A stretch of DNA of 33,689 nucleotides from Bacillota bacterium (GTDB lineage Bacteria; Bacillota; DTU065): NCBI GenBank assembly GCA_028708605.1, contig JAQVYS010000015.1, forward strand, positions 1 through 33,689, given 5' to 3'. The position numbers and the translations under genes were made by a program. The notes under the pieces are model-generated. The model worked only from the letters and a program-made list of their open reading frames with translations, did no database searches and was not told the origin of the DNA. Shown here piece after piece: positions 2,778 through 33,689 of the stretch. How positions within the stretch are numbered: position 1 is the stretch's first letter; each line of letters starts with the position of its first letter.

Positions 2778-4538
2778 TTATATTGTAGAGGTTGTCTTTT
2801 TCTTTTGAACAGGCTCATCTACCTCAACTTTTTTACCTAACGTAAAGAGCATACCTACTATTACTAAAAGTCCAACAGGTAGTGCAATCCATACGCTTAC
2901 ACCTAAGCTTGTTGGTAGATAACCAAACAGAATTGTAACAACGCTTATTGCAATAGCATACCAGATTTGTGTGTTTACGTGGTCAAGGTGGTCGCTAGAA
3001 GATCCCATTGAAGAGAGAATAGTAGTATCAGATATCGGTGAGCAGTGATCACCAAAGATGGCACCTGTTAGTACTGCGCCTACACTCATTACCACAAAGC
3101 TTGGATTTGGGTTGATGCTGTATGCTAGAGGAATTGCAAGTGGCATTAAAATACCCATTGTTCCATAACTGGTACCTGTAGCAAATGAAATGATTGAACC
3201 TAGCAAGAAGATCAAGGTCGGCAGTAGAAATGCTGGAAGTGTACCGGAAAGAAGTGACACTAGGTAATTTGCAGTTCCAAGTTCCTTAATGACTCCTGAT
3301 AAAGACCAAGCAAGAAGGAGAATAACTGCTGTAATAATCATTGATCTTAGCCCAGCTATAAAGGTGTCAATTGCTTCGGACACAGAAAAGAGCTTTTGCC
3401 AAACGCCCATTATTATAGCAACAAGACTAGCAAATAATGCAGATTGGAAAAGCACAAGACTAGCATCGCTGCTACTAAAAGCTTCCCGTATTGCATCAAA
3501 TGATAGTGGCGAGGTTTCAAGTAGCGAGATTAGTGCTAGATCCTCTCCACCTATAATTGTCGAGTAGCCGTTAAAGTAAAAACCGACAAACGAAGCGACA
3601 ATTAATACCCCAATAGGAATAACAGCATTCCATACATTGCTTTTTCTGCTTGGAGTTAACTCTTTGACATTTTCATCAGTACTCATAGGCTTTATGCCAG
3701 GAGCAAGTAGTTGCCCTTGTCTTGCTCTACGTTCTGCTTTGAGCATCGGACCAAATTCTCTTAAGAAAAAGGCAGTAGCAAAAACGAAAAACAGCATAAA
3801 AATGTTGTAGAATCTGTAAGGGATTGTCTCTAGGAAGACGACATATGCGTTTGTAGTCTGTCCTATAGAAGCATAAGCATCTCTGATAAGACTCATTTCA
3901 TAGCCAACCCAAGTTGAAATCAGTGCGATACCTGCAACTGGGGCGGCTGTCGCATCGACAATAAAAGACAGCTTTTCGCGGGAAATCTTCATCTTATCGG
4001 TTACCGGACGCATAATAGGTCCAACGATCAGCGAGTTTGCATAGTCATCAAAAAAGACGAGGTGTCCTAAAAACCAAGTGATGATCTGTGCTGAACGTGG
4101 GGTCTTGGCTCGCTTTGATAGTGATTCGGCAATAGCTCTTGCACCGCCCATAGAGGTGACTAAAGCGATAAGACCACCGATTGTCATACATTGAAGGATA
4201 ACGCCTGCATTCCATGGATCAGCAAGAGAAGCTAATGTCAATTCAGTAAGCTTTAAAAATGCAGGAACAATATTAGCTAATACGGCCCACAAGTTTTGGA
4301 AAAATCCGCCGGGCATCACCAGAGTTAGAATGAAAGTACCTGAGAGAATCCCTATAAAAAGGGAAATCACAACATTCTTAGTGATAAAAGCTAAGGTAAT
4401 TGCTACAAGGGGTGGGATCAAGGTCCAAATTCCAAACCGTGCTGCATTATCCTCTGCCGTACTTGCAAATGCAGGCAGAGCTAAAAGCAATACGAATGTC
4501 AAAACCAAAAGCATCTTCGTTTTTGATACCTTCAACAT
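2778..4538 (-). CDS. NhaC-family Na+/H+ antiporter-like transporter, predicted lysine transporter (LysW-type) from the upstream riboswitch
   Basis: Polytopic membrane protein with FFDDYANSLIVG, SFATGTSYGTMGI and GDHCSPISDTT motifs typical of the NhaC superfamily; ATG at 4538 preceded by AGGTGGGG. Confidence 0.85.
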   Translation of the reverse strand: MLKVSKTKMLLVLTFVLLLALPAFASTAEDNAARFGIWTLIPPLVAITLAFITKNVVISLFIGILSGTFILTLVMPGGFFQNLWAVLANIVPAFLKLTELTLASLADPWNAGVILQCMTIGGLIALVTSMGGARAIAESLSKRAKTPRSAQIITWFLGHLVFFDDYANSLIVGPIMRPVTDKMKISREKLSFIVDATAAPVAGIALISTWVGYEMSLIRDAYASIGQTTNAYVVFLETIPYRFYNIFMLFFVFATAFFLREFGPMLKAERRARQGQLLAPGIKPMSTDENVKELTPSRKSNVWNAVIPIGVLIVASFVGFYFNGYSTIIGGEDLALISLLETSPLSFDAIREAFSSSDASLVLFQSALFASLVAIIMGVWQKLFSVSEAIDTFIAGLRSMIITAVILLLAWSLSGVIKELGTANYLVSLLSGTLPAFLLPTLIFLLGSIISFATGTSYGTMGILMPLAIPLAYSINPNPSFVVMSVGAVLTGAIFGDHCSPISDTTILSSMGSSSDHLDHVNTQIWYAIAISVVTILFGYLPTSLGVSVWIALPVGLLVIVGMLFTLGKKVEVDEPVQKKKTTSTI

Positions 4539-4564
4539 TTTCCCCACCTATTCTGTCTAGCCGT

Positions 4565-4775
4565 AAAAAATCTTAGAGCTATTCATAGCTATAAGGCTAA
4601 GAGGCTTAGCTTCGGTAACGCTTTGCAAGACTCCCTATGCTTGTGACAGTTTTAAAGACCAGCTAGTTAGTTTGATAACTAATCTGACTTTGGCGACTTT
4701 TCTTTTACTAGATATCCTAGCAGTTAGGTCCTTCTAGTTACTTATAAGAGTCGCACCTCTATCAATTAACGTCTG
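4565..4775 (-). ncRNA. Lysine riboswitch (L box) with terminator expression platform
   Basis: Reverse complement reads GATAGAGGTGCGACTCTTATAAGTA...AAGTCGCCAAAG...AACTAGCTGG...ACTGTCAC, matching the conserved lysine aptamer blocks (AGAGGUGCGA, GUCGCCGAAG, GCUGG, CUGUCA). Followed by TCTTAG..AGCTATgaATAGCTCTAAGATTTTTT (terminator) and a competing GCTAAGcctCTTAGC stem. Confidence 0.87.
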
Positions 4776-4916
4776 TAGTTAGTATAGTTAGAAATCACCT
4801 GTGCATTTGGGTCAAAGGCATGTTTACGGCTGTCATTTATACAAATTTGTATTCTCTATAATGTCTATTTTCCCTCTATTCACGGTAAACATATATTTTA
4901 GACAAAAAAGGAGATT

Positions 4917-5447
4917 TTGCAGTTGAGACTTGTATATAGTCAAATAAACTTAAAAAATTTAGAGATTAATGAGCGTATAAACCGAATTATTCAAGGAATA
5001 GAAAGGGGTCGAAAAGAGGGAGCGGATCTTGTAGTTCTGCCGCTTTTAGACTACTATGATCTTAAAGAGGCTTTAGCTTTTTCTCCTACTCTTCTAAAAG
5101 GAACCTGTGACTACCCAGATATTACAGTACTATTAGCGGGAAGAAATAACGCAAAATTTCAAACGGTTTTTTTATTAATTACTGAAGGAAAAATTATCGG
5201 TAAAGCAGATTATCTAAGCGATATAAGCAATGCAGAAGCTCTTAAGTGGAGCATAGACTTAAATAGATGTTCTTCTTTAGAGCTTAGCATCTTGATAGAA
5301 AGACCAGCAAACTTTTTAGATTTAGATTATACTAGAAAAGCCTATCTTTTTTTAGATAGTAGTAATGTATTAGATAGTCTATACTATAAAGGGTCTAGCT
5401 ATATGTTAGCTAAAAAAACGGATTCAGTATTCGTTTTTGACTTCTAG
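4917..5447 (+). CDS. Carbon-nitrogen hydrolase (nitrilase)-like protein, probably catalytically degenerate
   Basis: N-terminus LRLVYSQINLKNLEINERINRIIQGIERGRKEGADLVVLPLLDYY resembles nitrilase/NAD synthetase amidase domains, but the FPE catalytic Glu position reads LPLL and the protein is only ~175 aa. TTG start, possibly at 4923. Confidence 0.45.
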   Translation: MQLRLVYSQINLKNLEINERINRIIQGIERGRKEGADLVVLPLLDYYDLKEALAFSPTLLKGTCDYPDITVLLAGRNNAKFQTVFLLITEGKIIGKADYLSDISNAEALKWSIDLNRCSSLELSILIERPANFLDLDYTRKAYLFLDSSNVLDSLYYKGSSYMLAKKTDSVFVFDF

Positions 5448-5584: not shown

Positions 5585-7003
5585 ATGAAGAAAACATTAA
5601 ATGTCGTCTTTCTTCTGATTTTAATTGCATTTACAGCCTCAGCAGTCTTTAGGTACGAAATTGATTGGCAAAAAGACATTTTAGAGGTAGATTCATCGGG
5701 TCAGATATTATTAAATAAATCCTTTTCTTTTAGAGTTTTGCCTGAATCAACTGAAAATGGTACAGAAATTTGGGTGGGGCTACCAACTAAGAATACTAAA
5801 GTAACAAATGCTAGCTATGTGGAAAATCGGGTCTCCACCGCTCTTGAGTTTCGACAAGATACTTCTGGAGATAACTACCAGGTCATTTTTGATAGAATAC
5901 CTGCAATATTACCTGGTCAGAGTCTAGAAATACATTATACAGCAACAGTTCCCGATTTAATTTATTGGTTAGATAAAAAACAGCCAGACGAAGAACCAAA
6001 TGCTCAAAGAGTAGCTCTTTCCTATATTCCGGCATGGTGGGATAAAGCAGTGGTAAGAGAGCTAACACTTGAGTTTAGGTTTGCTTCTCATCTTAATTTG
6101 AGTGACGTTCAATACGCAAAGGTGGAGCCTCACTTTGTAGATACAGATCAGCAATTAGTCATAGGTTACACCTACCAAAACGTGCCTCAAGAGACTAAGC
6201 TTCATCATAGTATAATCCTACCTAAAAACTACTTTGCTTCTAATTTTGAGCCCCAAAGAGACTGGCTTACTAACTCACAGATTACAGTCATAGTTAGTAT
6301 AGTTGTCGTTTTAGTACTTTTGTTTGGTGCTTTTGTTCGTTATTTAGTCAAACAAGAAAGATATACGACACCTGCAGCTTACATCACTGGTAAAGAGGCT
6401 TACACAAACTTTGATCCCGTAGAAACAGCCCTGTTTTTTAGTGTCCCTGGCGAAATTTTGGTAAAATTAATAATAATGGGATTAATGGACAAGAATATTA
6501 TTAAGATGACGTCAACAAAACAGCTGAAGAGAGAAGCTACACTAGAAAAATTAACATGGTATGAAGAGTTGTTTCTAGATGTAATTGATAAGGAAGTCAA
6601 CATAAAGCCTGAAAAATGGACAGATTTTTGCCGAGAAACCCTAGACAAACTAAAAGAGATGCTAGGTGGCTATTGTGGGGCGCAGACTAAAGCTTATTAT
6701 CAAAGGAAGTTAGCAGATATTCATGTCGAAGAGAATACAGATCCTAGGTGGCTTGTACTGAAAGACTATTTAAATCGAAAAATCTACGAAAAACCAAAGA
6801 GTAATAAGCAGTATGAACCAGTCTATCTCAACTCATACCTGCCTATATTTTACCTGAGTTTTATTGATAACGATATGGAAAGAGAGCGTAAAGCAGCTTT
6901 TACGAAGACCTTTACGTCGAGTTCTAGTGGTGGTCATAGCGGAGGAAGTAGTTGCGCTTGTGCCTGTGCTTGCGCTTGTGCGAGTAGTGGAGGTTGCACT
7001 TGA
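5585..7003 (+). CDS. DUF2207-like membrane protein with C-terminal Cys-Ala repeat tail
   Basis: MKKTLNVVFLLILIAFTASA signal peptide, extracellular domain, single strong TM (ITVIVSIVVVLVLLFGAFVRYLVKQ), then a soluble region ending SSSSGGHSGGSSCACACACACASSGGCT. ATG 5585 has RBS GTGAGGTGG; the ORF-track start at 5531 is upstream of the RBS. Confidence 0.75.
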   Translation: MKKTLNVVFLLILIAFTASAVFRYEIDWQKDILEVDSSGQILLNKSFSFRVLPESTENGTEIWVGLPTKNTKVTNASYVENRVSTALEFRQDTSGDNYQVIFDRIPAILPGQSLEIHYTATVPDLIYWLDKKQPDEEPNAQRVALSYIPAWWDKAVVRELTLEFRFASHLNLSDVQYAKVEPHFVDTDQQLVIGYTYQNVPQETKLHHSIILPKNYFASNFEPQRDWLTNSQITVIVSIVVVLVLLFGAFVRYLVKQERYTTPAAYITGKEAYTNFDPVETALFFSVPGEILVKLIIMGLMDKNIIKMTSTKQLKREATLEKLTWYEELFLDVIDKEVNIKPEKWTDFCRETLDKLKEMLGGYCGAQTKAYYQRKLADIHVEENTDPRWLVLKDYLNRKIYEKPKSNKQYEPVYLNSYLPIFYLSFIDNDMERERKAAFTKTFTSSSSGGHSGGSSCACACACACASSGGCT

Positions 7004-8277
7004 TGGGTGATAGAAGTAAATTGGTTTTTCGTGAAATAGATGGGAATAACTGGCACCTTCGCCGCGAAAGTGGCGGAGGGGTTCTTATTATAAATGGAAG
7101 TAAATTAATACACCTAAACCAGAGTGCATTTGATTTTGTTTGGCATTATCTCAAGCTAAGAGCAAACGATCAAGCAACAGTTTTTCTAATGAAAATGAAA
7201 TACGGTTTGAGTATTAAGCAAACTAAAGAGGATTGGTTTAAATTAAAGAAGACTCTGTTTCTAGCTTCTGATAACTGCTGTGAAAGATCTGGAGTAGAGG
7301 TCTCAACAGGCCAAAAAGAGTTTGAAGCACCTCTTAGGGTGGACCTAGCATTAACATATCTATGTAATAATGATTGCTTTCATTGCTACGCAGGAGGTAG
7401 TCACCATAGTCTAGAGATGGACACTAATAAATGGAAAGCTGCAATCGACAAGCTTTGGGATTTTGGAGTTCCTCAAGTTGCCTTTACAGGAGGGGAATCC
7501 CTTTTAAGAGAAGACTTGCCAATTCTCATTCGTTATGCCAAAAACCGTGGTATGATAACTGGATTAATTACAAATGGCAGACTTCTTACAAACGCAAAAA
7601 CTAAGGAATTAGCAAGATCTGGCTTAGATTTTGTGCAGATTACTATTGAGTCTCATTTAGAGACTGTTCATAATAATATGGTTAGGGCAGAAGCCTTCGT
7701 TGAGACTTTAGACGGCATCAAAAATGCACTTAAGTCGTCTTTAAAAGTGACAACAAACACGACTATGACTGCATTAAATGCTGATTCAGTGCTTGATACT
7801 GTTTCGTTTTTATTGGAACTTGGAGTAAAACAAATAGGACTAAATGGTCTTATCCGCTCTAAAAGAGGGATCGATAAAGAAGGATTAAGCTTAAAGCAGC
7901 TAGAATTAATATTAGATCAAGCCAAAAATAGTTGCAATTCACATGGCGCAGAGCTTATTTGGTTTACCCCGACATGCTATAGGTATTTTAATCCTTTAAA
8001 AGAGGGTTTGGGTACAAAACGCTGCTCAGCAGCTTCCACAGTTTTAGCCATAGAACCAGATGGAAGAGTGATGCCGTGTCAATCTTATTTCAAAGGAATT
8101 GGTAACATTAACACTGATAGTATGTCTGATATCTGGCACCATCCACTTAGTAACTCAATTCGCAATCGCGATTGGTTAGATGAGGAGTGTAAAAACTGTA
8201 ATCACATTCTAGCTTGTGGCGGAGCATGTCCTTTAGAAAGTGGCTTAGATGCAACTATCAATAAAGGGCTAATTTGA
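7003..8277 (+). CDS. Radical SAM/SPASM domain protein with N-terminal PqqD/RRE-like domain (candidate peptide-modifying enzyme)
   Basis: Radical SAM CX3CX2C (CNNDCFHC), GGESLL motif, SPASM-type Cys pattern (CSAASTVLAIEPDGRVMPC...CKNCNHILACGGAC). The N-terminal ~85 aa (GGGVLIINGSKLIHLNQSAFDFVW...) looks PqqD-like. ATG at 7003 overlaps the upstream TGA (TGATG). Confidence 0.88.
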   Translation: MGDRSKLVFREIDGNNWHLRRESGGGVLIINGSKLIHLNQSAFDFVWHYLKLRANDQATVFLMKMKYGLSIKQTKEDWFKLKKTLFLASDNCCERSGVEVSTGQKEFEAPLRVDLALTYLCNNDCFHCYAGGSHHSLEMDTNKWKAAIDKLWDFGVPQVAFTGGESLLREDLPILIRYAKNRGMITGLITNGRLLTNAKTKELARSGLDFVQITIESHLETVHNNMVRAEAFVETLDGIKNALKSSLKVTTNTTMTALNADSVLDTVSFLLELGVKQIGLNGLIRSKRGIDKEGLSLKQLELILDQAKNSCNSHGAELIWFTPTCYRYFNPLKEGLGTKRCSAASTVLAIEPDGRVMPCQSYFKGIGNINTDSMSDIWHHPLSNSIRNRDWLDEECKNCNHILACGGACPLESGLDATINKGLI

Positions 8278-8333
8278 TATAAGTACATTTTTTGTAATAA
8301 GCTATTATAATTGGTTTTGGAGGCTATAAGGCG

Positions 8334-9227
8334 ATGAAAAAACTTTTTGCTTTAATAATACTACTATCGGCTTTAGTAATCGCTACAGCTGTATTTGCGG
8401 ACAACACAGCTAACACCGTTTTTAGTGAAGCAGTACAGACTTTGAATTTAATGGACGATGTTGTTATAACTAGCCCAGGTAGTCTTAAAACCTTACGGAT
8501 TATGGAAATAGATACTCCAGTCAAAATTAAGGGCTCTAAAAATGATTTTGTAACGATTAAGTTGCTTTCCTCAAAAAAAGGATCAGCTAGTTTAGATCTT
8601 GCATATGAGATTATGGGTGAAGAGATTTGGCTGGCTGTAGAAAAAGTGGTAAGAGAACTTTTCGAAGAAGATGTCATCGAAGAAAATTTACCTATAAGAG
8701 AAAATGATGATGGCGTCTCATTAGAGGATGAAGACAGAAAAAATGTCAATCTTCAAGAAGATAGCCTACAGGAATTATCTCTAGATTTTTGGGTTGAGAT
8801 ATCCATACCCACCCATATGAATGTTGTCTTAGGAGAAACAGTTAATAAAGGCAGTATAATTGGGGTTGCAGGTGTAGATATGAACGCAGGTATTGGCGAT
8901 TTTGTTCTTGAAAATATTACAGGCTTTGTCAGAATCCGAGATAACGCAGGAACTTTAAGGTTAAAGAATGTTACTGGTGATGTTTGGATAAGCGACAAAG
9001 GCGGTGCTATTTCAGTGGAAAATGTCACAGGCCTAGTTACAATCGACAGTGACGTAGGTTTAGCCCTTAGAGTTCAGGATGTAACCGGCGATGTCACTAT
9101 CTCATCTAAGCTTGGAGGTTCTGCAGAAGTTGCGAATGTAAAGGGAAATGTTTCAGTATTCTCAAGAGCCCCGATTAAGACAGCTTGCATTGGTATTACC
9201 GGGAACGTTATAGTTCCTGAAAATTAA
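8334..9227 (+). CDS. Secreted DUF4097-like (adhesin/beta-solenoid) protein
   Basis: Signal peptide MKKLFALIILLSALVIATAVFA; C-terminal repeats of the type NxTGxVxI (ENITGFVRI, KNVTGDVWI, ENVTGLVTI, QDVTGDVTI); RBS TTGGAGG. Confidence 0.7.
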   Translation: MKKLFALIILLSALVIATAVFADNTANTVFSEAVQTLNLMDDVVITSPGSLKTLRIMEIDTPVKIKGSKNDFVTIKLLSSKKGSASLDLAYEIMGEEIWLAVEKVVRELFEEDVIEENLPIRENDDGVSLEDEDRKNVNLQEDSLQELSLDFWVEISIPTHMNVVLGETVNKGSIIGVAGVDMNAGIGDFVLENITGFVRIRDNAGTLRLKNVTGDVWISDKGGAISVENVTGLVTIDSDVGLALRVQDVTGDVTISSKLGGSAEVANVKGNVSVFSRAPIKTACIGITGNVIVPEN

Positions 9228-9324: not shown

Positions 9325-10122
9325 GTGAAAAACAAACTAGTTTTATTTATTATTTTTGTCTTAGTCCTTACATCTATTCATATCTATGCTGATGCGATAG
9401 AAGCTATAGTATTACTGCCAGATGGTAATCCTGCTCCATATGCAACCGTTACAGTTGGTGAAGATGCCTTGCAAGCAGACGGAAACGGTAAAGTAACTTT
9501 GGATGTCGGGGCAGACGTGAAGACAGTTACTGTAAAGTGGCTTGATTTAACTGCAGAATTACCTGTTTCAGAAAATCTTAAGTTTAGAAATAAAGTACTT
9601 TATGGTCCTCCTTATAGCAAAGACGACTTCTTAATTACCGGTCCTGATATTTGGGAAATAAAAGATACAGAAATTGTTACTACCGCAGATTCGGAATCAT
9701 CTATCTTCTACGAAGATGCTTTTGAAAACACAATCTTACGAGCAAAGTATACTCTTGATGATGCTGCGCAATGGTATTATATAAGGTTCTTTATTCGTCT
9801 ATATGACGCAGGATTTAACGGCTATAGTCTAAACTTTCCAGGTATCGGCGATGCCTACTATGCACGTTATGACGGTAACTGGGATCAGCATGTTGGTATG
9901 ACCTTCTTTAGGTTTAGGAGTAAAGTAAAAACAGAATACGAGTTTGTAATGTTTGCTAAGGATGAAAATATTACAGTATATCACCGCGAGACAGCAAACA
10001 AATACACTAAGGTTCTTGATATTAATGATAGTAGCCCTGATGCTTACTACGATGGTGGGTTTGCTATCATGAACAGTTTTCTCTCATGCAAAATAACAGA
10101 GCTTGGCTTATTTGCGTATTAA
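9325..10122 (+). CDS. Secreted protein of unknown family, paralogue of 25398-26219
   Basis: GTG start with RBS GGTGGAGG; signal peptide; LPDGNPAPYATVTVGE..KWLDL..YGPPYSKDDFLITGPDIWEI..GFNGYSL shared with the paralogue. Confidence 0.75.
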   Translation: MKNKLVLFIIFVLVLTSIHIYADAIEAIVLLPDGNPAPYATVTVGEDALQADGNGKVTLDVGADVKTVTVKWLDLTAELPVSENLKFRNKVLYGPPYSKDDFLITGPDIWEIKDTEIVTTADSESSIFYEDAFENTILRAKYTLDDAAQWYYIRFFIRLYDAGFNGYSLNFPGIGDAYYARYDGNWDQHVGMTFFRFRSKVKTEYEFVMFAKDENITVYHRETANKYTKVLDINDSSPDAYYDGGFAIMNSFLSCKITELGLFAY

Positions 10123-13935: not shown

Positions 13936-15231
13936 TTATTTTGAAGTTAAGGTGTTAATAAAGCGAGCATACTCTCTCTGTTTTCTGGCCATCTCGTCAT
14001 TTGAAATATTAGCTGCTTTTCTCATCTCTTCTGCAGGGTCTGCACCAGTTATGACAACAGCTCTAGCTGCATTCATAATGTTTCTCTGGCTGATGATAAG
14101 GCCTAAAGCAAACAAAGGAGCTCGAGAGGCTTCAGCCTGAGTGTTAAGGATCTGGCGATGGGATTCAGGTAAAAATGATAAGGTGTTATATGCTTCCATA
14201 TTTGCTGGCTGGCGGATAATATGCAGTTGGTTCCACATCATATCTGCAAACTCTCTTTGAATACCAGCACTTAACCACCATTTTAAAAACTCAAAAGCCT
14301 CTTCTTTGTTTTGGGAGTTTTTAAACATTACATAAGGGTTTCCGCCAACATAAGCAGCATGGTTAATTGTACCGTCTTCGCGTTTTGTACCAGGAATTAA
14401 GCACAAATCCCATTTGCCTTTGAGATTTGGTGCGCCAAGAGTGATGTCGGAGTAGCCCCAGCTAATACCTACCAAAAATGGGTAATCGCCGCGACTCATA
14501 GCTTCAATAAAAGGCACGCTTTCTGTGGGGATGCCGTGCTTTGTAAACAGTTCAGTAAACTCAGTAAAGGCGTTAATTGCCTCTGGGGAGTCCCAAGTAG
14601 TTTTGGTGCGGTCAGCGTTTACTTCACGGATTCCATGCTGCCACATAAAGATGTAAGCGCCGAACCAGTCCGGAGTTAGATACCATGATGAGGAGCCTAC
14701 ATTCATACCGTTTGCTTGCATTTTAGGAAGAAGAGTTCTAACCTCGTCCCAAGTTGCAGGTACTTCCCAGCCGTTTTCGGCAAAAATGTCAGTACGATAA
14801 AAGGTGAGGGTTTGCCCAAAGCTTGCGTTTAATCCAAAACCAGTACCGTAATAATCTAACGATTCGTTTAGTCCTGGAAAGGCAGTGTTGAAGATCTTAT
14901 CATACTCTTCTTGGAACATCTCACGCATATCGACTAGTCCACCGCGAATGCCAAACTCCAAAGGCCATTCAGATCCAATAACCGCTAGGTCTGGCGTGTC
15001 ATTACTTGCCATAGCTAAGAGTACTTTGTTCCATTGATCAGATCCGCCAGGCATGGCGCTTATGTTGATTTTAATCCCTGTTTGAGGTGTGAATTTTTCT
15101 TCAATAAAGCTGTTCATAATTGCGATTTGCTCATTACTAGATGCTTGCCATATCTCTACAATGGCAGCATTTACAAGTGATGACGCAAATACTAAAATGA
15201 GAAATAAAGTAAGAAAACTCTTTTTGTACAT
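13936..15231 (-). CDS. Extracellular solute (sugar)-binding protein, family 1
   Basis: MYKKSFLTLFLILVFASSLVNAA signal; FTPQTGIKINISAMPGG, SNDTPDLAVIGSEW; C-terminal EMARKQREYARFI. AGGAGG RBS before ATG 15231. Confidence 0.88.
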   Translation of the reverse strand: MYKKSFLTLFLILVFASSLVNAAIVEIWQASSNEQIAIMNSFIEEKFTPQTGIKINISAMPGGSDQWNKVLLAMASNDTPDLAVIGSEWPLEFGIRGGLVDMREMFQEEYDKIFNTAFPGLNESLDYYGTGFGLNASFGQTLTFYRTDIFAENGWEVPATWDEVRTLLPKMQANGMNVGSSSWYLTPDWFGAYIFMWQHGIREVNADRTKTTWDSPEAINAFTEFTELFTKHGIPTESVPFIEAMSRGDYPFLVGISWGYSDITLGAPNLKGKWDLCLIPGTKREDGTINHAAYVGGNPYVMFKNSQNKEEAFEFLKWWLSAGIQREFADMMWNQLHIIRQPANMEAYNTLSFLPESHRQILNTQAEASRAPLFALGLIISQRNIMNAARAVVITGADPAEEMRKAANISNDEMARKQREYARFINTLTSK

Positions 15232-15530
15232 GCTTTTTCCTCCTAGATAAATAAAATGCAATCATAGTATAGCATACATGGCTGAGATGAAAAAGCTAAA
15301 GAGGAAAATTAAAAAAGGGCTAGCAACTGTTGGCAAGGTGTGTGGTTTAGAGAATAAACTAGGAAAAGTAATAAGAGTAGATATCGGTCTTAAACGTTTC
15401 TAGTTGCGAAATTAAAAAGAATCTGTTGCAAATAGCATCTATAACAAGACCTACCGTTTTCCAAAGGCAGGTTTGAAACAAGGTTTATGAGATTAACATA
15501 AGTCTTCTACTAAACTAAGGAGTGATGTAG

Positions 15531-18123: not shown

Positions 18124-19398
18124 ATGAAAAGGATTTTGCCAATCTTACTTATCATGTTAATTTTAAGCTTCAGCATTTATGCCGAAAAGATTGTTCTTTG
18201 GACATGGTACGAGGGTGTCCTTGGAGCAATCTTAAGAGATTTAATCAACGAAGAATTCACACCTCAAACAGGAATAGAAGTCGAAGTATTAACTGTACCA
18301 ATTCAGGATATTAATAGTAAACTAATCATGGCACATATCGGCGGAGATGCCCCAGATATAGTAGAACTATATTCTAATCAGGTTGTGGAGCTAGGGGTTA
18401 GGGGAGCTCTTTATAATCTGATGGAGATTCCAGACATTAACAGTGCTATTGATCAAGTCTATCCCCAGTATTTAACGCAGCTCTCTTACAGAAACGCACT
18501 CTTTGGTCTACCAGGCGAAAACAATTGGCTAATGACCTATTACCGCGAAGATATCTTTAATGAGCATGGGTTAGATGCGCCAGAGACTTGGGATGATGTA
18601 AGAGATCTTTCTATTAAGCTTCTAGCAAGAGATATGGGTATGTATTATAACTTTGTTGGCGATGCTATCACCGTAAACACAAATAGACTTTTACCGTTTC
18701 TATTTCAAAGAGACTCTGATCTCTATAATCTAGCTGGAGACGGGTCAAACTTAGATTCAAAAGAGGCAATAGCAGCTTTTTCAGAGTACTGTGCTTTATA
18801 TACTGATAGCAAAATGCGTCTAGAAGATCCAATTGAAACTACTTTTATCAGTGGGGAAACGCCTCTGCTTTTTGCTCAAAGCTACCGCTATTCGGTCTTT
18901 GAGAGAATAGCTCCTAACCTTGTGGGCAAATGGTCTATTAAAGAGCTTCCAGGCACACCGAAAAGATCAGGTAAGATAGATCATACAAATGCAAGTACCT
19001 GCCTTGCCTGGGCGATGCCAGCTTCTATCAAAAATAAAGATGCAGCCTTTAAATTATTAAAATGGTTAACCTCAAGTGAGACCACAGGTAGATTTATGCT
19101 CTTGGCAAACCAATCTTCAGAAAAATGGCGTTTGTTCTTTGCGTCAAAGGATACTCTAGATAATGCTCTCTTTCCAGAAGGACATTTAGAGGTAGCTACC
19201 AGAGGCTTAGAAAATAGTGGCGTGCAAAGAGCGGTTATCGGTGGTTATATCGCAGATCGGTACATTGATTTTGCTTTTAACAGAGTTATTCTCCAAGGAG
19301 AAGACCCAGAAGTAGCAATTAGAGACGCTGCAAAGGAATCTACTATGGAGATCCAAAAAAAGCTTAGAGAGTTTGCAAGATTTATTGATAATCTATAA
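18124..19398 (+). CDS. Extracellular solute (sugar)-binding protein, family 1
   Basis: Signal peptide MKRILPILLIMLILSFSIYA; FTPQTGIEVEVLTVP, GGDAPDIVELYSNQ; C-terminal KKLREFARFIDNL. Confidence 0.88.
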   Translation: MKRILPILLIMLILSFSIYAEKIVLWTWYEGVLGAILRDLINEEFTPQTGIEVEVLTVPIQDINSKLIMAHIGGDAPDIVELYSNQVVELGVRGALYNLMEIPDINSAIDQVYPQYLTQLSYRNALFGLPGENNWLMTYYREDIFNEHGLDAPETWDDVRDLSIKLLARDMGMYYNFVGDAITVNTNRLLPFLFQRDSDLYNLAGDGSNLDSKEAIAAFSEYCALYTDSKMRLEDPIETTFISGETPLLFAQSYRYSVFERIAPNLVGKWSIKELPGTPKRSGKIDHTNASTCLAWAMPASIKNKDAAFKLLKWLTSSETTGRFMLLANQSSEKWRLFFASKDTLDNALFPEGHLEVATRGLENSGVQRAVIGGYIADRYIDFAFNRVILQGEDPEVAIRDAAKESTMEIQKKLREFARFIDNL

Positions 19399-22224: not shown

Positions 22225-22503
22225 TCAAAGCGCCTGAGAGTAAGTAAAGACTATTTGCATATTATTTCATTGTTTTTGTTTATTACAAGAAGAAAATATG
22301 AGGTAACATTATGATTGAGCGATTATAAATACTTCTCAGGAAATAGTTCAAAGGATATAAAAAGTTTTATCAGACTAAAGCTTAGGTTTACGGCCTTATA
22401 ACAAATAAAGCGATCGTTAGGAGATTGTTAGAAATGAGGTGGTTTTTCTTACACTAATCAACTGGACTTATCACTGTTATTTTTCTTGGGGGGAAATATA
22501 AAA

Positions 22504-23790
22504 ATGAAACTTAGAAAAAGTTTAGGATTGGGACTTATAGTTTTAGTGTTGTGCTCTAGCTTGGCTTTTAGTGCGGAAAAGATTACAGTTTGGATGACTT
22601 ACGGTGGGCATATGGGAGAGGTAGTAGCTAGACTGATTGAAGAGGATTTCATTCCTAGAACAGGTATAGAAGTTGAGTATGTCCCGATGCCAGCCACTCC
22701 TGAAGTTATGACTAAGCTAATACTTGAAATTTTAGGTGGCACTGCTCCAGATATCTGTTCTCTAGAGGGCTATCAGGTCATCGAGCTTGGTATGCGCGGA
22801 GCATTAGAGACTATGAATCAATTTGCTGATCATAAGGATGTTCTTGGTCGCTTCTATCCTGGTTTTAGTGGTCAATTTATCTATAATGACAAGGTTTACG
22901 CACTTCCTGGCGAGTCTAGCTGGACTCAGACTTATTATCGCACCGATATTTTCCAGGAGCTTGGACTAGAGCCAGCACTAACCTGGGATGAAACGCCAAA
23001 TATCTCAGCTAAGCTTAAGGCACGCGAGATGGAGTTTTACTATTTTAATGGTGGAGGACATCCACGCACATTAATGAACTTTACCTTCCAAAAAGGAGAA
23101 GACATTTTTACACCAGACGGTCTGCAATCTAACTTAGACAATCCTGCTGTTGTAGATGCCTTTACAACCTATACGGATCTTTATACTAAACACGGTATGC
23201 CTTTGGAACTGCCAGACTATCAAGTTTTTACTACAGGTGAATCCCCTTATATGGTACACCTTCACTATATCTATGGTTTGATTGATAATCTTGCTCCACA
23301 AGTTAAAGGCAAATGGAATACAGCACACACTCCAGGTACTCTCCAAGCAGACGGTACTATTAACCATGCAATTCCAACATCATCATTTGCGTATGTAATT
23401 CCAAAATACAACCAAAGCCAAGCTAAAAAAGATGCTGCTTGGGAGTTTCTAAAATGGTATACATCAGATGAGACTTTAGCTCGCATTCAAAAAGGCTTCT
23501 ATGACGGGCCAGATCGCTGGGTTCTCGCATTTGGAACAAAATCAAGTTTTGAAAGTGCCATGTTCTATGAAGAAGATCGCGATATTATTACCGAGGTAGT
23601 AGCCGTTGGTAGAAGCATGACCTCTATTCCTGGAGGATATTCAACTTACCGCTATATTGACTTTGCTTATAACCAAGTAGTATTGCAGGGTATGGATCCA
23701 AAAACTGCATTGGAAAAAGCCGCAAAGGATTCTAGTTCTGAGTTGGAAAGAAAGAGGAGAGAGTTTGCTCGTTTCCTTGTCGATATGTAG
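22504..23790 (+). CDS. Extracellular solute (sugar)-binding protein, family 1
   Basis: ATG 22504 with GGGGGG RBS; signal peptide to AFSAEKITVW; GGTAPDICSLEGYQVIELGMRGAL; C-terminal ERKRREFARFLVDM. Closest in the window to the 18124 SBP. Confidence 0.88.
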   Translation: MKLRKSLGLGLIVLVLCSSLAFSAEKITVWMTYGGHMGEVVARLIEEDFIPRTGIEVEYVPMPATPEVMTKLILEILGGTAPDICSLEGYQVIELGMRGALETMNQFADHKDVLGRFYPGFSGQFIYNDKVYALPGESSWTQTYYRTDIFQELGLEPALTWDETPNISAKLKAREMEFYYFNGGGHPRTLMNFTFQKGEDIFTPDGLQSNLDNPAVVDAFTTYTDLYTKHGMPLELPDYQVFTTGESPYMVHLHYIYGLIDNLAPQVKGKWNTAHTPGTLQADGTINHAIPTSSFAYVIPKYNQSQAKKDAAWEFLKWYTSDETLARIQKGFYDGPDRWVLAFGTKSSFESAMFYEEDRDIITEVVAVGRSMTSIPGGYSTYRYIDFAYNQVVLQGMDPKTALEKAAKDSSSELERKRREFARFLVDM

Positions 23791-23982: not shown

Positions 23983-25257
23983 GTGAAAAAAGCAATAATA
24001 GTTGGGGTTTTAGTAATGCTTGTTAGTGCGATAGGTTTAGCAACGGAAATCGAATTTTGGATGGTTGGCTGGAGTAACGAAATGGCTAAAGTGGCAGATG
24101 GGATTATCGATACTGAGTTTACACCACAAACCGGTATTGAGGTATCTATTGTACCAATCGCTTGGGGAGATTATTATCAAAAAAGTCTTTTGTCTCTTGC
24201 GAGCCGAGATACCCCAGATATTTTTAGCCTTGGCTCCGAGATAGCTGACTTTGCGTTAAGAGGAGGTTTAATTGACCTAGCTGCGTTTAAACCTGAAGAA
24301 TATGCTGAGCTTGAAAAAGAGATTTTTGCTTCTGTTATGGGACCGTTTTCATTTAAGGCTAGTCGTTTTGCACTACCAATCGATGTAAGTGGTTATATTG
24401 GCGTATATCGAACTGATCTTTTAACGGAACTTGGCATGCAGGTCCCAGAGACTTGGGATGAGATTAGAGATTGGCAACCTAAAGTTTTAGCAAATGGCAT
24501 GACCTTAGCTTACACAAACTTTGACAATATGTGGGGTGCATACACACTTATTACTCAAAATGGTGGTCAATTCTTTGGTGATGACGGTTTTAGTAGTGCT
24601 TTAGATCAAGAAGAGTCTGTTAAAGGCTTTAGTGATTTTGTTGAACTGTTTACAGTCCATAATCTCCCTAAAACTTTAGTTGGAACAGAGCCTTTTATTA
24701 GAGGAGAGCAGCTTTGCTATGCAGATGGTTTATGGGTTTATGGCACTATGAGTCAAGTCGCTCCTGCACTTCAAGGCAAATGGACGGTTGGCTTAATTCC
24801 TGGAACTAGAAAAGGTGACCAGGTGGTCCATGGATCTTTTGCAGGGAGTACTCTACTTGGAATCTCAGCGTTTTCTAGTAAAAAGGATGAGGCTTGGCAG
24901 TTTCTTAAATGGTTTTTATCAGCTGATGTCCTAGAGCGAATCGCAAATGGAATTATGAGCACCTCAAACGGTTGGATCTGGATTCCGGCAAATAAAAAAG
25001 CTATGACTAACCTGGATCTACCTGATGAAGTCAAAAATGTTTACTATAACCAGATCGATGATAGCTTTCCTGTTCCATATGCGGTAAATGCCCTTGTACA
25101 ATATCGTTTTGTTACTCTAGCTTTGCAGAAGTGTGTGACCCAAAATGCTGATCCTAGAGAAGAGATCTTAGACGCTGCCGATGAGATGAATTCTGAAATG
25201 GCAAGAAGGAAAAAAGAGTATAGTCGCTTTCTAAAATCGATGAATATTAGTATGTAG
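23983..25257 (+). CDS. Extracellular solute (sugar)-binding protein, family 1
   Basis: GTG start with GGAGGG RBS; MKKAIIVGVLVMLVSAIGLATEIEFW; FTPQTGIEVSIVPIAWGDYYQK, SRDTPDIFSLG; C-terminal RRKKEYSRFLKSM. Confidence 0.88.
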   Translation: MKKAIIVGVLVMLVSAIGLATEIEFWMVGWSNEMAKVADGIIDTEFTPQTGIEVSIVPIAWGDYYQKSLLSLASRDTPDIFSLGSEIADFALRGGLIDLAAFKPEEYAELEKEIFASVMGPFSFKASRFALPIDVSGYIGVYRTDLLTELGMQVPETWDEIRDWQPKVLANGMTLAYTNFDNMWGAYTLITQNGGQFFGDDGFSSALDQEESVKGFSDFVELFTVHNLPKTLVGTEPFIRGEQLCYADGLWVYGTMSQVAPALQGKWTVGLIPGTRKGDQVVHGSFAGSTLLGISAFSSKKDEAWQFLKWFLSADVLERIANGIMSTSNGWIWIPANKKAMTNLDLPDEVKNVYYNQIDDSFPVPYAVNALVQYRFVTLALQKCVTQNADPREEILDAADEMNSEMARRKKEYSRFLKSMNISM

Positions 25258-25397: not shown

Positions 25398-26219
25398 ATG
25401 AGAAAAGGCTCATTGTTTTTGGTTGTATCTCTGGTTTTGGTTATGGCAACCTGTAGTGTAGGAGCAGCTAGCCTGGCAGCAAGAGTTGTCCTTCCTGACG
25501 GTAGTGGAGCTCCATTTGCCACGATTACAATAGGAGACAAAGTATTTACAGCTTCAGAGAGTGGTAGGGTGGAATTAACTTACGACACCGAGAAAACAGC
25601 TTGTGTAAAATGGCTTGAACTAGAAGAAGAAATTCCAATCTCTGATACAATGACATTTTCTAACAAACTTTACTACGGTGCTCCCTATGATGTATATGAC
25701 TTTCTTACTACTGGTCCTGAAATATGGGAAGTCACTGAAACCGCAATGTTTTGTCCAGGAGGACAAGGAAATGAATCTCAGATATACTTAGATGATAGCT
25801 TTGAGAACTTTGTGTTTAGAAGTAAATTTAACGCTGAGGCAGATGGGCAATGGAATTACCTACGTTTTATGTTAAGGGGTATTGAACCGGGCTTTAACGG
25901 TTATGGTTTAAGTGTTGCTATTCATCCAATCGATGAGTGTTTCTTTGCACGTTTTAATGGTTCATGGGATGCTTATGATCAGTTAACAGAAAGTCTTTTC
26001 GTTGGTCCTTCTATGGATTCTGGAGCCGATAACGAATTTGTTGCATTCTTAAAAGATGAACACATCGTTATTTATATCAGAAATCAAGGCGAAAAAGACT
26101 ATACTAAACTTATCGATCTCGTTGACGAAGATCCTAGTGCATTCTTTGATGGTGGAGTAGGCATTCTAAATAGCTTTACAACTGTAGAGATCACTGAGTT
26201 TTCGGTATTTAGATACTAA
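25398..26219 (+). CDS. Secreted protein of unknown family, paralogue of 9325-10122
   Basis: Signal peptide; LPDGSGAPFATITIGD, KWLELEEEIPIS, YYGAPYDVYDFLTTGPEIWEV, GFNGYGL, FDGGVGILNSFTTVEITEFSVF. Confidence 0.75.
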   Translation: MRKGSLFLVVSLVLVMATCSVGAASLAARVVLPDGSGAPFATITIGDKVFTASESGRVELTYDTEKTACVKWLELEEEIPISDTMTFSNKLYYGAPYDVYDFLTTGPEIWEVTETAMFCPGGQGNESQIYLDDSFENFVFRSKFNAEADGQWNYLRFMLRGIEPGFNGYGLSVAIHPIDECFFARFNGSWDAYDQLTESLFVGPSMDSGADNEFVAFLKDEHIVIYIRNQGEKDYTKLIDLVDEDPSAFFDGGVGILNSFTTVEITEFSVFRY

Positions 26220-30491: not shown

Positions 30492-31634
30492 TTAGTCTAA
30501 ACTTCCGTAGATAGTGACGCTTCCAAGATTCATCCCTGAGGTCATTAATGTGCTATTAACATTGATGGTGATTGGTACAGTTTGATAAAACTCTAACCAA
30601 TTATCTCTTATCTCAAACCAAATGCTAGGATGAAAAGCTCTAAGCAGTCTGCCAAAGCCTACAGGATCTGAGCCCAATTCTCTGATAGTCGCGAGAGCTT
30701 TAGCAGCTTCCTTTTGGACATGGTGCGCCTGAGCTGTTGTAAGGTTGGTCCAATGCTTTGGTATAGTTGGGTCAATAGCACCTGTTTGTTCACCAAGATT
30801 GCTTACGACTTTAATGTTTACTTCATAGCTTACCTTACTGTTTTCGACCTTAGTTTTGATTTTGGTGCTAGCAGAGGTAATTTCTAGAGTTGCAGATTCA
30901 ACTTCAGAATTTTCGATAACTATTAAGCCGCCTTCGATTTGTCCCATTAGCCAAAGCAAACCTCTCGAAGTAAGGGTGTCAATATTCCCTACGAAGGTTT
31001 CGCGTCTAAAGAGTGAAGTTCCCTTAACTTCTATAAATGTTTCGTCTTCCACGTCTCTAGTTCCAAGTAACGTACAAGCAAAGTCCTTACCTTCATTACT
31101 TAAGGAGACAGTAACCTCCTTAAACCTAGTATGGACATATTTACCAAGAGATTGTTTTGTGACAAAGAGTGCGTTTAGGCCTTCTCCAGAAATATCCTCT
31201 AAGGCAACTTTTGCTTTTAATAGCTCTCTAGCTTTTTTTTCGGTGACCGCTATCGAAATAATAGGGCGGACCTCAAAGTCTCTGATGAAACAGTCTGTTA
31301 AGACGGCTAACCCTTTGTCTAAAGAATCTTCACTAAAAATCGCTATCTGTAGATAACCCCAATAGAGTTTGTGAGACAAGTAGCTTGAAGCATTTCGAAT
31401 AGCATCAAATATTGTGGCTCCAGATGTATAGATTGTAGTAGTAACGTTTTCACTTGAAGTTTGGGCGATTTTCTCCGGTCTAATAATTTGAATTGTTAAG
31501 TAGTATTTGTTGTCTTCATAGTCGATACCAACGGCAGAAACTAGAGCTAAATCCTCTAGTTCATATGAACTCCAACATCCAGTTCCAAAAACGACAATCA
31601 GTATCAACAAAATTAGTGTCAGTTTCAGCTTCAA
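30492..31634 (-). CDS. Ger(x)C-family spore germination lipoprotein
   Basis: Lipobox FGTGCW; CWSSYELEDLALVSAVGIDYE typical of GerAC; ATGA overlap with the upstream GerA gene. Confidence 0.92.
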   Translation of the reverse strand: MKLKLTLILLILIVVFGTGCWSSYELEDLALVSAVGIDYEDNKYYLTIQIIRPEKIAQTSSENVTTTIYTSGATIFDAIRNASSYLSHKLYWGYLQIAIFSEDSLDKGLAVLTDCFIRDFEVRPIISIAVTEKKARELLKAKVALEDISGEGLNALFVTKQSLGKYVHTRFKEVTVSLSNEGKDFACTLLGTRDVEDETFIEVKGTSLFRRETFVGNIDTLTSRGLLWLMGQIEGGLIVIENSEVESATLEITSASTKIKTKVENSKVSYEVNIKVVSNLGEQTGAIDPTIPKHWTNLTTAQAHHVQKEAAKALATIRELGSDPVGFGRLLRAFHPSIWFEIRDNWLEFYQTVPITINVNSTLMTSGMNLGSVTIYGSLD

Positions 31635-33208
31635 TGGTTCTCACCTTGGTCATTATTTAAGTGTGTTAACCGAAAGTCAGCGCGCTTTTTGTCTACTGCA
31701 AATTGACGCGGTCGAAAAACTCTCATCCATATTGGCAAACGTACAAAGGTGTCTGCCATCTCTTTTGGAATAAGGGGTGAAATCGGAGAGAGATACGGAA
31801 TCCCAAAAGAATAAAGAGAAGTTAAATAAAGTAAGGTGACAATGATCCCGTAGACAAGGCCATAAAAGCCCAATAATCCTACTAAAAGGAGATAGAAATA
31901 TCTTAAGAAGGTTGCTGGTTCAAAGAGGGACGGAATTATAAAATTCGCAATTGCAGTAAGTGCGATAGAAATCACCATAGGAGCGCCTACAAGACCTGCA
32001 TTTACCGCGGCGTCACCGATAACTAAAGCGCCAACAATGTTTACTGCACCACCAACTGCCCCCGGCATACGAATACCAGCTTCTCTCAGGATTTCGAAAA
32101 ATAAAGACAAAATAAGAGCCTCAACAAAAGCTGAAAACGGTGTGGACATTCTCGCTGCAGCAAAAGAATAGGCTAGGTAATTGGGAAGTAGTTCATGATG
32201 AAATGAAGTAAGCGCTACATAAGAAGGAACTGTAAAGATGCTTAAGAGAAACGCTACAAACCTAAGAAGCCTTAAGGAACTTTGCATAATCCACGGACTA
32301 CAATAATCCGAGGGGACTTGGAAGTGTTCAATAAATAGATGCGGGACAGTCAGCACAAACGGTGTTCCGTTAACTATAATGGCAATTCTTCCCTCTAAAA
32401 TCTTGCTTGCTACCTTATCGGGTCTTTCACTAACTCCTATAGTTGGAAAAGGGGAGTGGGGCGAATCACCTATTAATTCACTAATAATCCCAGATGAGAG
32501 TAAACCATCGATTTTAGAGGATTTTAAACGTCTTTTTACCTCATCCAAAAGCTCAGGGCGTGCGATACCTTTGACATAAGCAATACAGATATCTGTTTTA
32601 GTTACAACACCAATTGAGGTCATCTCTAAAGCTAAATTAGGAGTAGCGATGATCCGCCTTAAAAGAGAGGTGTTGATTCTTAAATTTTCTACGAAACCCA
32701 ATCTAGGGCCTTGTGTAGTTCTTTCTGTATCTGGTTCTTCGATAGCGCGTGTTGCAAATCGCCTGTGTCCTAAGACTAATGTGTCTTGAAAGCCATCGAT
32801 AAGTAGTGCGGTTTCTCCCTGCATAACACGTTCAACAGCTCTATATAACTCGTTTTCGATCTTCAGTTCAGTTGAAAGAATCAAGTGATTGGTGATGGCC
32901 TCTAAAGGGCTTAGGTTCGTACCAATAATATTTTTAAAATATTCCTCCTGAATTAAAGGCTGTATAACTCGAACCTCTAGCGCTTCTTTGTCTACTAATC
33001 CGTCTACAAAAAGCAAGATAGCTCTGATTTCTCCGTTAAACCCGATATTAAGCTCTCTAATAATAATATCGGGGCTTTCTCTGAACTGTCTTTTTAGATA
33101 TAGGATTTTTTTGTCTAATGATTTTGTAGGCAGAGGTATCGTTGGATCTTGATCACTACTTGCAAATAATCTTTTGAGACCTAACTTTTGCTTTAACCAT
33201 GCAAACAT
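31631..33208 (-). CDS. GerA-family spore germination protein (A subunit)
   Basis: GFVENLRINTSLLRRII, KTDICIAYVKGIA, EGRIAIIVNGTPFVLTVPHLF, YVALTSFHHELLP, AVNAGLVGAPMVI motifs. Confidence 0.93.
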   Translation of the reverse strand: MFAWLKQKLGLKRLFASSDQDPTIPLPTKSLDKKILYLKRQFRESPDIIIRELNIGFNGEIRAILLFVDGLVDKEALEVRVIQPLIQEEYFKNIIGTNLSPLEAITNHLILSTELKIENELYRAVERVMQGETALLIDGFQDTLVLGHRRFATRAIEEPDTERTTQGPRLGFVENLRINTSLLRRIIATPNLALEMTSIGVVTKTDICIAYVKGIARPELLDEVKRRLKSSKIDGLLSSGIISELIGDSPHSPFPTIGVSERPDKVASKILEGRIAIIVNGTPFVLTVPHLFIEHFQVPSDYCSPWIMQSSLRLLRFVAFLLSIFTVPSYVALTSFHHELLPNYLAYSFAAARMSTPFSAFVEALILSLFFEILREAGIRMPGAVGGAVNIVGALVIGDAAVNAGLVGAPMVISIALTAIANFIIPSLFEPATFLRYFYLLLVGLLGFYGLVYGIIVTLLYLTSLYSFGIPYLSPISPLIPKEMADTFVRLPIWMRVFRPRQFAVDKKRADFRLTHLNNDQGENH

Positions 33209-33212
33209 CTTC

Positions 33213-33689
33213 TCACCTCTTTAAAATACGAGACTTAGATTTTTTAGTAGGTTTTGGTTTCAAAAAGAAGCTTCTAACTAGGCTGATAATGGGAAATAGG
33301 AAACTGAAGACTAAAGTAAAGTATCTTAAATAGTGTTGCCTAAACCAAGCAATCAAACCAATATTTAGGGGCATTTTATTAGCGACAAAAATTACGGTAA
33401 AAAAAAGCGGTATAAGTAGACTTCGGTAGGATTTTAGATTAAACACTTGGGCGACTGTCAAGATGATGACATAGAGAAACAGGGTGGTTCCTGTAAAGCC
33501 TATCAAGTTTAAGGTAAGGGACATTATTATTTCTACGTGGGTTATACTGGCACCAATACTAATATTTCTAGCAACAGAAATAAAAGGAAATAGCTCATTT
33601 TTTACTCCAGCTCCATAAACAAGAATATTTCGCAACGATGTTAAGAAGACCACACTAGACCCTAATATTACACCTCGAAAAAAGCCTTT
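33213..33689 (-). CDS. GerAB-like endospore germination permease, C-terminal part (continues past window edge)
   Basis: Polytopic; frame is open from the ORF-track start at 33653 to the window edge (GFFRGVILGSSVVFLTSLRN); position next to GerA/GerC. Confidence 0.82.
   Translation of the reverse strand, partial: KGFFRGVILGSSVVFLTSLRNILVYGAGVKNELFPFISVARNISIGASITHVEIIMSLTLNLIGFTGTTLFLYVIILTVAQVFNLKSYRSLLIPLFFTVIFVANKMPLNIGLIAWFRQHYLRYFTLVFSFLFPIISLVRSFFLKPKPTKKSKSRILKR

Follow-up and report, generated by a model that had tools for sequence, protein, structure and literature searches.

A 33,689-nucleotide stretch of a Bacillota bacterium genome (contig JAQVYS010000015.1; the whole stretch is here called the window) encodes a 472-amino-acid (aa) membrane protein with a Cys-Ala tail, followed directly by a radical S-adenosylmethionine (SAM)/SPASM enzyme. 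Most of what is known about radical SAM/SPASM maturases concerns small secreted peptides, and the locus poses the question of whether this one acts instead on a large membrane protein, at its tail. We think it likely that the tail is the substrate of the dedicated enzyme, and almost equally so that the two genes form a protein-modification system of the kind described below. The tail protein and its landmarks are as follows.

5585 to 7003, plus strand: tail protein, 472 aa, an open reading frame (ORF) with its ATG at 5585.
6260 to 6358, plus strand: single internal transmembrane (TM) helix of the tail protein, residues 226 to 258 by hydropathy (230 to 257 in the predicted model).
6947 to 7000, plus strand: C-terminal tail SSCACACACACASSGGCT, read from the sequence, with Cys at residues 457, 459, 461, 463, 465, and 471.
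6989 to 6994, plus strand: GGAGGT, the Shine-Dalgarno sequence of the radical SAM gene, within the Gly-Gly codons of the tail and 8 nucleotides (nt) 5' of the enzyme ATG.

The TGA of the tail gene (7001 to 7003) overlaps the ATG of the enzyme gene (7003 to 7005) as TGATG, and translation of the enzyme gene is coupled to that of the tail gene. The initial annotation of this DNA had described the membrane protein with its Cys-Ala tail, the TGATG overlap, and a third gene 56 nt downstream (stop at 8277, start at 8334), all of which we confirmed.

We scanned 399 genomes of the window's phylum for the enzyme (threshold, E ≤ 1e-38). It was present in 17, and in 16 of these a Cys-repeat tail was encoded beside it; in the 17th genome (L028) the region is partly N-masked and no tail was seen. 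When named genomes were searched using only the enzyme alignment as the query, 80 loci were found, spanning Bacillota, Chloroflexota, a Mcinerneyibacteriota metagenome-assembled genome (MAG), Bathyarchaeota, Thermoplasmata, and Heimdall-, Hermod-, and Sigynarchaeota. A Cys-repeat tail gene was found near the enzyme at 76 of these loci. The other four belong to Hermod and Sigyn archaea, and three of those four genomes encode the tail protein elsewhere. Gene order varies, with the tail gene before the enzyme gene, after it, on the opposite strand, or in trans, so that the link between the two is not mere synteny. Because tail protein and enzyme almost always adjoin in the numerous uncultured bacteria and archaea that encode them, the enzyme probably modifies the tail of the full-size membrane protein and not a small secreted peptide.

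For the reverse test, degenerate DNA patterns for the tails were searched in the Chloroflexota class that includes Thermanaerothrix daxensis (249 genomes). The pattern for CACAGCACA occurred in 30 of the 249 genomes, every one of them belonging to the 34 that have a clade-1 enzyme, versus a single genome for the reversed control; the pattern for CHSACHSA occurred in 29 genomes, all with the second enzyme clade. A tail implied an enzyme in 59/59 genomes, and an enzyme implied a tail in 59/65. Tail type (CA or CHSA) follows enzyme clade (30/0 versus 0/29), and the CHSA-tail enzymes of Bacillota group with the CHSA enzymes of Chloroflexota and not with their own phylum, which is one change on the tree. 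The Fisher p values for co-occurrence (8.6e-51) and for tail type against clade (1.7e-17) overstate independence, because the 249 genomes are related. Locus L173 was marked "tail" on the tree though its contig stops before the tail, and it was excluded from the tail-type count; its genome (G508) carries a CHSA tail on another contig.

Among the six genomes with an enzyme and no tail in this class, five (G423, G545, G574, G441, and G641) have the enzyme at a contig end and were rejected as counterexamples, which leaves G422 as the one true exception here and G665 among the archaea. G535, a candidate for a tail without an enzyme, was also rejected: its enzyme adjoins the tail but is split between two frames, which is why it missed the E-value cut. 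A sister function in which the enzyme works with a methyltransferase and without a tail (Hermod and Sigyn archaea, G422, and G423) was set aside, given that three of the four archaeal genomes have a tail elsewhere. The initial annotation had suggested a co-occurrence check, with enzyme homologues regularly occurring without a Cys-rich tail protein as the pattern that would speak against it. In the genomes scanned, the enzyme almost never occurred without the tail protein and the tail never without the enzyme.

The tail is conserved as a protein sequence. It is identical from CACACACACA through the last residue in the window, L002/L037, and L003, and relatives sharing 46 to 63% overall identity keep this tail while its Cys and Ala codons vary synonymously, which argues that it is not a DNA microsatellite. 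Tails differ in length and pattern, yet Cys stays at alternate or every-fourth positions, the codons of the invariant residues vary freely, and the residues between the Cys are nearly always Ala, Gly, Val-Ser, or His-Ser; two types, a CA repeat and a CHSA repeat, can be told apart. Slippage can create short-period repeats, but a chance low-complexity run beside an unrelated enzyme is practically out of the question, already contradicted by conservation across phyla with synonymous codon variation and by the near-perfect co-occurrence. The codon variation and the reversed-pattern controls likewise ruled out a microsatellite or chance repeat. The segment just before the tail carries F[TS]xx[VI]T in 58 of 76 proteins and TNP in 61 of 76, and we propose it as a putative enzyme recognition site. 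As GGAGGT encodes Gly-Gly and is also the likely ribosome-binding site for the enzyme gene, Gly-Gly conservation in the window's group may partly be a start-site constraint. In Anaerolineae, where most enzyme genes begin further downstream, GGGR is still kept with free codon use, so that it is also a protein feature.

The predicted model of the window's tail protein (pLDDT 81.7) runs from an N-terminal hydrophobic segment (signal or anchor) through a beta-rich domain (residues 24 to 213), the TM helix (230 to 257), and a helical domain (278 to 446) to a disordered tail. A simple hydropathy scan found a single inner TM segment in 46 of 73 members, mostly with positive charge after it. Because positive charges come after the TM in most members, the tail and the C-terminal half are predicted to be cytosolic, alongside the enzyme, and the beta domain is probably outside. 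The label "DUF2207-like" given to this protein in the initial annotation stands in part. Pfam did not match DUF2207 (PF09972) in the window protein, where the likeness is undetectable from that sequence alone, but the relative L177 exceeds the Pfam cut-off (31.0 versus 24.4 bits), and other relatives match DUF2207 and TIGR04222 weakly. TIGR04222 was matched at E ≤ 0.1 in 8 of 61 members (L177, E 1.1e-9); the NCBIfam cut-off of 43 bits was not reached, the best printed score being 38.3 in L177, and the window protein was unmatched. These profile matches point to a remote DUF2207/TIGR04222 relative. A PDB search with the model returned only beta-domain matches (ribophorin I and M1 aminopeptidase N-domains) at a TM-score of ~0.3, which are uninformative on function.

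The enzyme encoded next to this protein has the following features.

7003 to 8277, plus strand: radical SAM/SPASM enzyme, 424 aa (Pfam, model, and PDB matches).
7021 to 7272, plus strand: putative RRE/PqqD-like N-terminal domain, residues 7 to 90 (secondary structure of the model; PqqD in relatives).
7363 to 7386, plus strand: CNNDCFHC, the CxxxCxxC motif for the SAM-binding [4Fe-4S] cluster, with C121, C125, and C128 (Cys invariant in the family).
8023 to 8229, plus strand: SPASM domain, C341-x12-G-x4-C359 plus C396-x2-C399-x5-C405-x3-C409 (Pfam and family alignment).

The window enzyme matched Pfam Radical_SAM (E 1.2e-22; 81.3 bits versus a cut-off of 29.5) and SPASM (E 1.8e-12; 47.8 bits versus 21.5), and CxxxCxxC was present in 75/75 family enzymes checked. 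In a quick tree, the 75 family enzymes split from 11 generic SPASM proteins on a branch with 100% SH-aLRT support, which makes this a well-supported family. No existing family model fits the enzyme: against the NCBIfam radical SAM models it scored far below the cut-off (at best 126.8 versus 525 bits), as did five diverse relatives. Pfam called PqqD (RRE) in 56 of 69 relatives (E ≤ 0.1) and not in the window enzyme itself, whose AlphaFold model (pLDDT 89.3; pTM 0.90) begins with a beta-rich part followed by three helices (residues 7 to 90). The RRE of the initial annotation is thus borne out by the relatives and by a matching fold, though not by a direct call. The top PDB matches of the model were SkfB, SuiB, and CteB, with anSME, PqqE, and TigE lower.

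The window enzyme does not carry the complete seven-Cys SPASM motif, in that the usual last (seventh) Cys is missing; 45 of 74 members likewise lack it within 25 residues. Two other Cys are specific to the family, C93 (in 79%) and one at position 327 in window numbering (in 83%), for which the window enzyme has C325 instead. In SuiB, a linker Cys before the SPASM domain ligates auxiliary cluster I (Aux I), while CteB has a fully ligated Aux II and an open Aux I site to which a substrate Cys binds (PMC6231123). Loss of the last SPASM Cys could leave an open auxiliary site in this enzyme family.

Three kinds of neighbor recurred among 81 loci: at 52 of them a zinc-ribbon membrane protein, at 44 a class I methyltransferase, and also an inactive paralogue of the enzyme. 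This pseudo-radical-SAM paralogue (~385 aa; mostly in Anaerolineae) retains the PqqD-like domain and has lost CxxxCxxC in 53/53 ORFs, with the SPASM cysteines gone too in the ORFs read; it directly follows the radical SAM gene in L046, L047, L054, L082, and others. At L160, the gene between the radical SAM gene and the inactive paralogue (4349 to 5161) resembles, by eye, a cobalamin-dependent methionine synthase reactivation domain in its C-terminal part. CHSA-tail loci regularly have a ~385-aa coiled-coil protein 3' of the enzyme (L177, 6596 to 7756; equivalents in L169, L170, L172, L175, and L178), often followed by a zinc-ribbon membrane protein. A minimal form, with tail and enzyme only, is found in the window, L037, and L038. 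The gene downstream of the pair in the window is as follows.

8334 to 9227, plus strand: DUF4097-like secreted protein, a neighbor judged to lie outside the system (conserved within the genus only).

The initial annotation had proposed this protein as a partner. Its DUF4097-like label found no family match, and the gene is common only to the window and the same-genus L037, which led us to reject it as a system component. The idea put forward with it, that a maturase serves the Cys tail of such a large membrane protein, survived the co-occurrence check. Other genes of the window were read by eye. A short ORF at 4917 to 5447, conserved only with the same-genus L037, is like the N-terminal part of a carbon-nitrogen hydrolase. 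Four genes are like the sugar-binding proteins of ABC importers (13936 to 15261, minus strand; 18124 to 19398, 22486 to 23790, and 23983 to 25257, plus strand), and no permease genes are evident beside them by eye. Two paralogous secreted proteins of unknown family lie at 9325 to 10122 and 25398 to 26219, and genes like a GerA-type spore germination operon at 30492 to 33653 (minus strand).

The neighborhoods bear on two other readings of the tail. Cys-rich repeats bind metals, and zinc-ribbon proteins adjoin the pair at 52 loci; the tail could be an unmodified metal-binding or redox strand on a scaffold or sensor protein while the enzyme modifies something else. A DUF2207 protein of Streptococcus mutans that affects acid and oxidative stress tolerance (PMC10457818) would suit such a role. 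We consider this unlikely, however, as tail type follows enzyme clade, the minimal two-gene form leaves no second candidate for a shared substrate gene, and a peptide-binding RRE is predicted in the enzyme. RRE-SPASM enzymes usually act on peptides, and the tail is a discrete C-terminal module behind a flexible Gly/Ser linker, as might be expected of a classical ribosomally synthesized and posttranslationally modified peptide (RiPP) that is cut off and exported, with the large protein as an oversized leader or carrier. Against such a RiPP, which we regard as quite improbable, the neighborhoods show no conserved protease or ABC exporter, group B proteins extend well beyond the Cys block, and conservation extends to the TM and the 190-residue extracytoplasmic domain.

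Modification of the tail in place is the favored explanation. The tail protein would span the membrane, the N-terminal beta domain facing outward and the C-terminal domain with the Cys-repeat tail facing the cytosol. The cotranslated radical SAM enzyme would bind it via the PqqD-like (RRE) domain, probably at the segment preceding the tail, and use 5'-deoxyadenosyl-radical chemistry to act many times along the tail, in which Cys alternates with small residues. The modified tail would remain on the full-length membrane protein and do its work there; a role in responding to metals or redox state is a guess. Several points weigh against this explanation. The enzyme occurs with no tail found in G422 and in the Hermod archaeal MAG G665, branch support on the tree is limited to SH-aLRT and long branches were flagged by the program at the CHSA clade, the topology comes from a simple hydropathy scan, and a conserved Cys run could bind metal without covalent change.

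As to the product, the most likely outcome would be Cys thioether cross-links like those of sacti- and ranthipeptides. Chemistry of that type is plausible, and our guess that a modified tail carries thioethers falls just short of even. Oxidation, a C-C or C-N cross-link, or epimerization at Cys or Ala, followed in Anaerolineae by methylation or assembly with partner proteins, is a credible if less than even prospect that overlaps the favored explanation, in which the chemistry stays open. The class I methyltransferase at 44 loci and the 53 ORFs of the dead paralogue would fit it, the varied residues between the Cys make no single acceptor side chain evident, and the seventh SPASM Cys is absent in 45/74 members, unlike in CteB with its fully ligated Aux II (PMC6231123). 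On the other hand, the nearest structural relatives include the thioether formers SkfB and CteB, and the Cys are the most conserved residues of the tail. More tentatively, a dedicated radical SAM enzyme may, in bacteria and archaea including Asgard lineages, turn the tail into a cross-linked, metal- or electron-handling strand at the cytosolic face of the full-length membrane protein, joined in Anaerolineae by the dead paralogue, the methyltransferase, and the zinc-ribbon membrane protein.

If true, this would be a large undescribed class of maturases acting on membrane-anchored proteins, found in several bacterial phyla and in archaea, Asgard lineages among them, with no NCBIfam match and no paper on it among the open-access papers searched. 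Those open-access papers held nothing matching the enzyme-tail pair, radical SAM pseudoenzymes, or DUF2207 with radical SAM. It is also unusual for a conserved neighbor to be a catalytically dead radical SAM paralogue. Because the pairing is near absolute and tail type matches enzyme clade, the substrate assignment is directly testable; Bellilinea caldifistulae and Thermanaerothrix daxensis are cultured hosts, and the two-gene form of the window is a minimal test case.

Among known systems, the sactipeptide and ranthipeptide maturases (SkfB, CteB, AlbA, and PapB) share the combination of RRE, radical SAM, and auxiliary-cluster domains and a Cys-containing presumed substrate, and the enzyme model matches the SkfB and CteB folds. 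Unlike in those systems, the presumed substrate is a membrane protein of 470 to 630 aa, exporter and protease are missing, and scores lie far below the NCBIfam cut-offs. The system is RiPP maturase-like yet falls outside the sacti- and ranthipeptides, since its partner is not a small precursor. SuiB (streptide synthase), the second-best structural match, joins Lys to Trp by a C-C bond in a short peptide, whereas the window tail has neither Lys nor Trp; the family's Cys at position 327 (C325 in the window) lies in the region equivalent to the Aux I linker Cys of SuiB. The DUF2207 family, as in SMU.243 of S. mutans (PMC10457818), shares the signal segment, beta-rich extracytoplasmic domain, TM, and cytosolic domain, but the Pfam model gives no call for the window protein, and the Cys-repeat tail and partner enzyme mark this subset. 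The SMU.243 phenotype (acid and peroxide sensitivity and weaker biofilm [PMC10457818]), the only DUF2207 phenotype found, is at most a hint toward stress handling.

The nearest idea in print is that of MNIO (DUF692-type) enzymes, which adjoin TIGR04222 membrane proteins whose Cys-rich C termini are proposed as substrates, although one third of TIGR04222 genomes are without MNIO (PMC12452194). No MNIO-like protein was recognized by eye among our recurring neighbors, not all of which were scanned with an MNIO profile, and the radical SAM enzyme occupies the place that MNIO holds in such pairs. Both systems have a membrane protein of several hundred residues on a remotely related scaffold, a C-terminal low-complexity Cys-rich segment, and an adjoining oxidative maturase. 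They differ in that the radical SAM/SPASM enzyme is unrelated to MNIO, the CA or CHSA repeats are strictly patterned, co-occurrence is much tighter, and the tail is predicted to be cytosolic here versus extracytoplasmic in the MNIO-TIGR04222 proteins. Under the tentative view of the tail as a cross-linked strand, this parallel would mean that one membrane scaffold had recruited two unrelated maturases.

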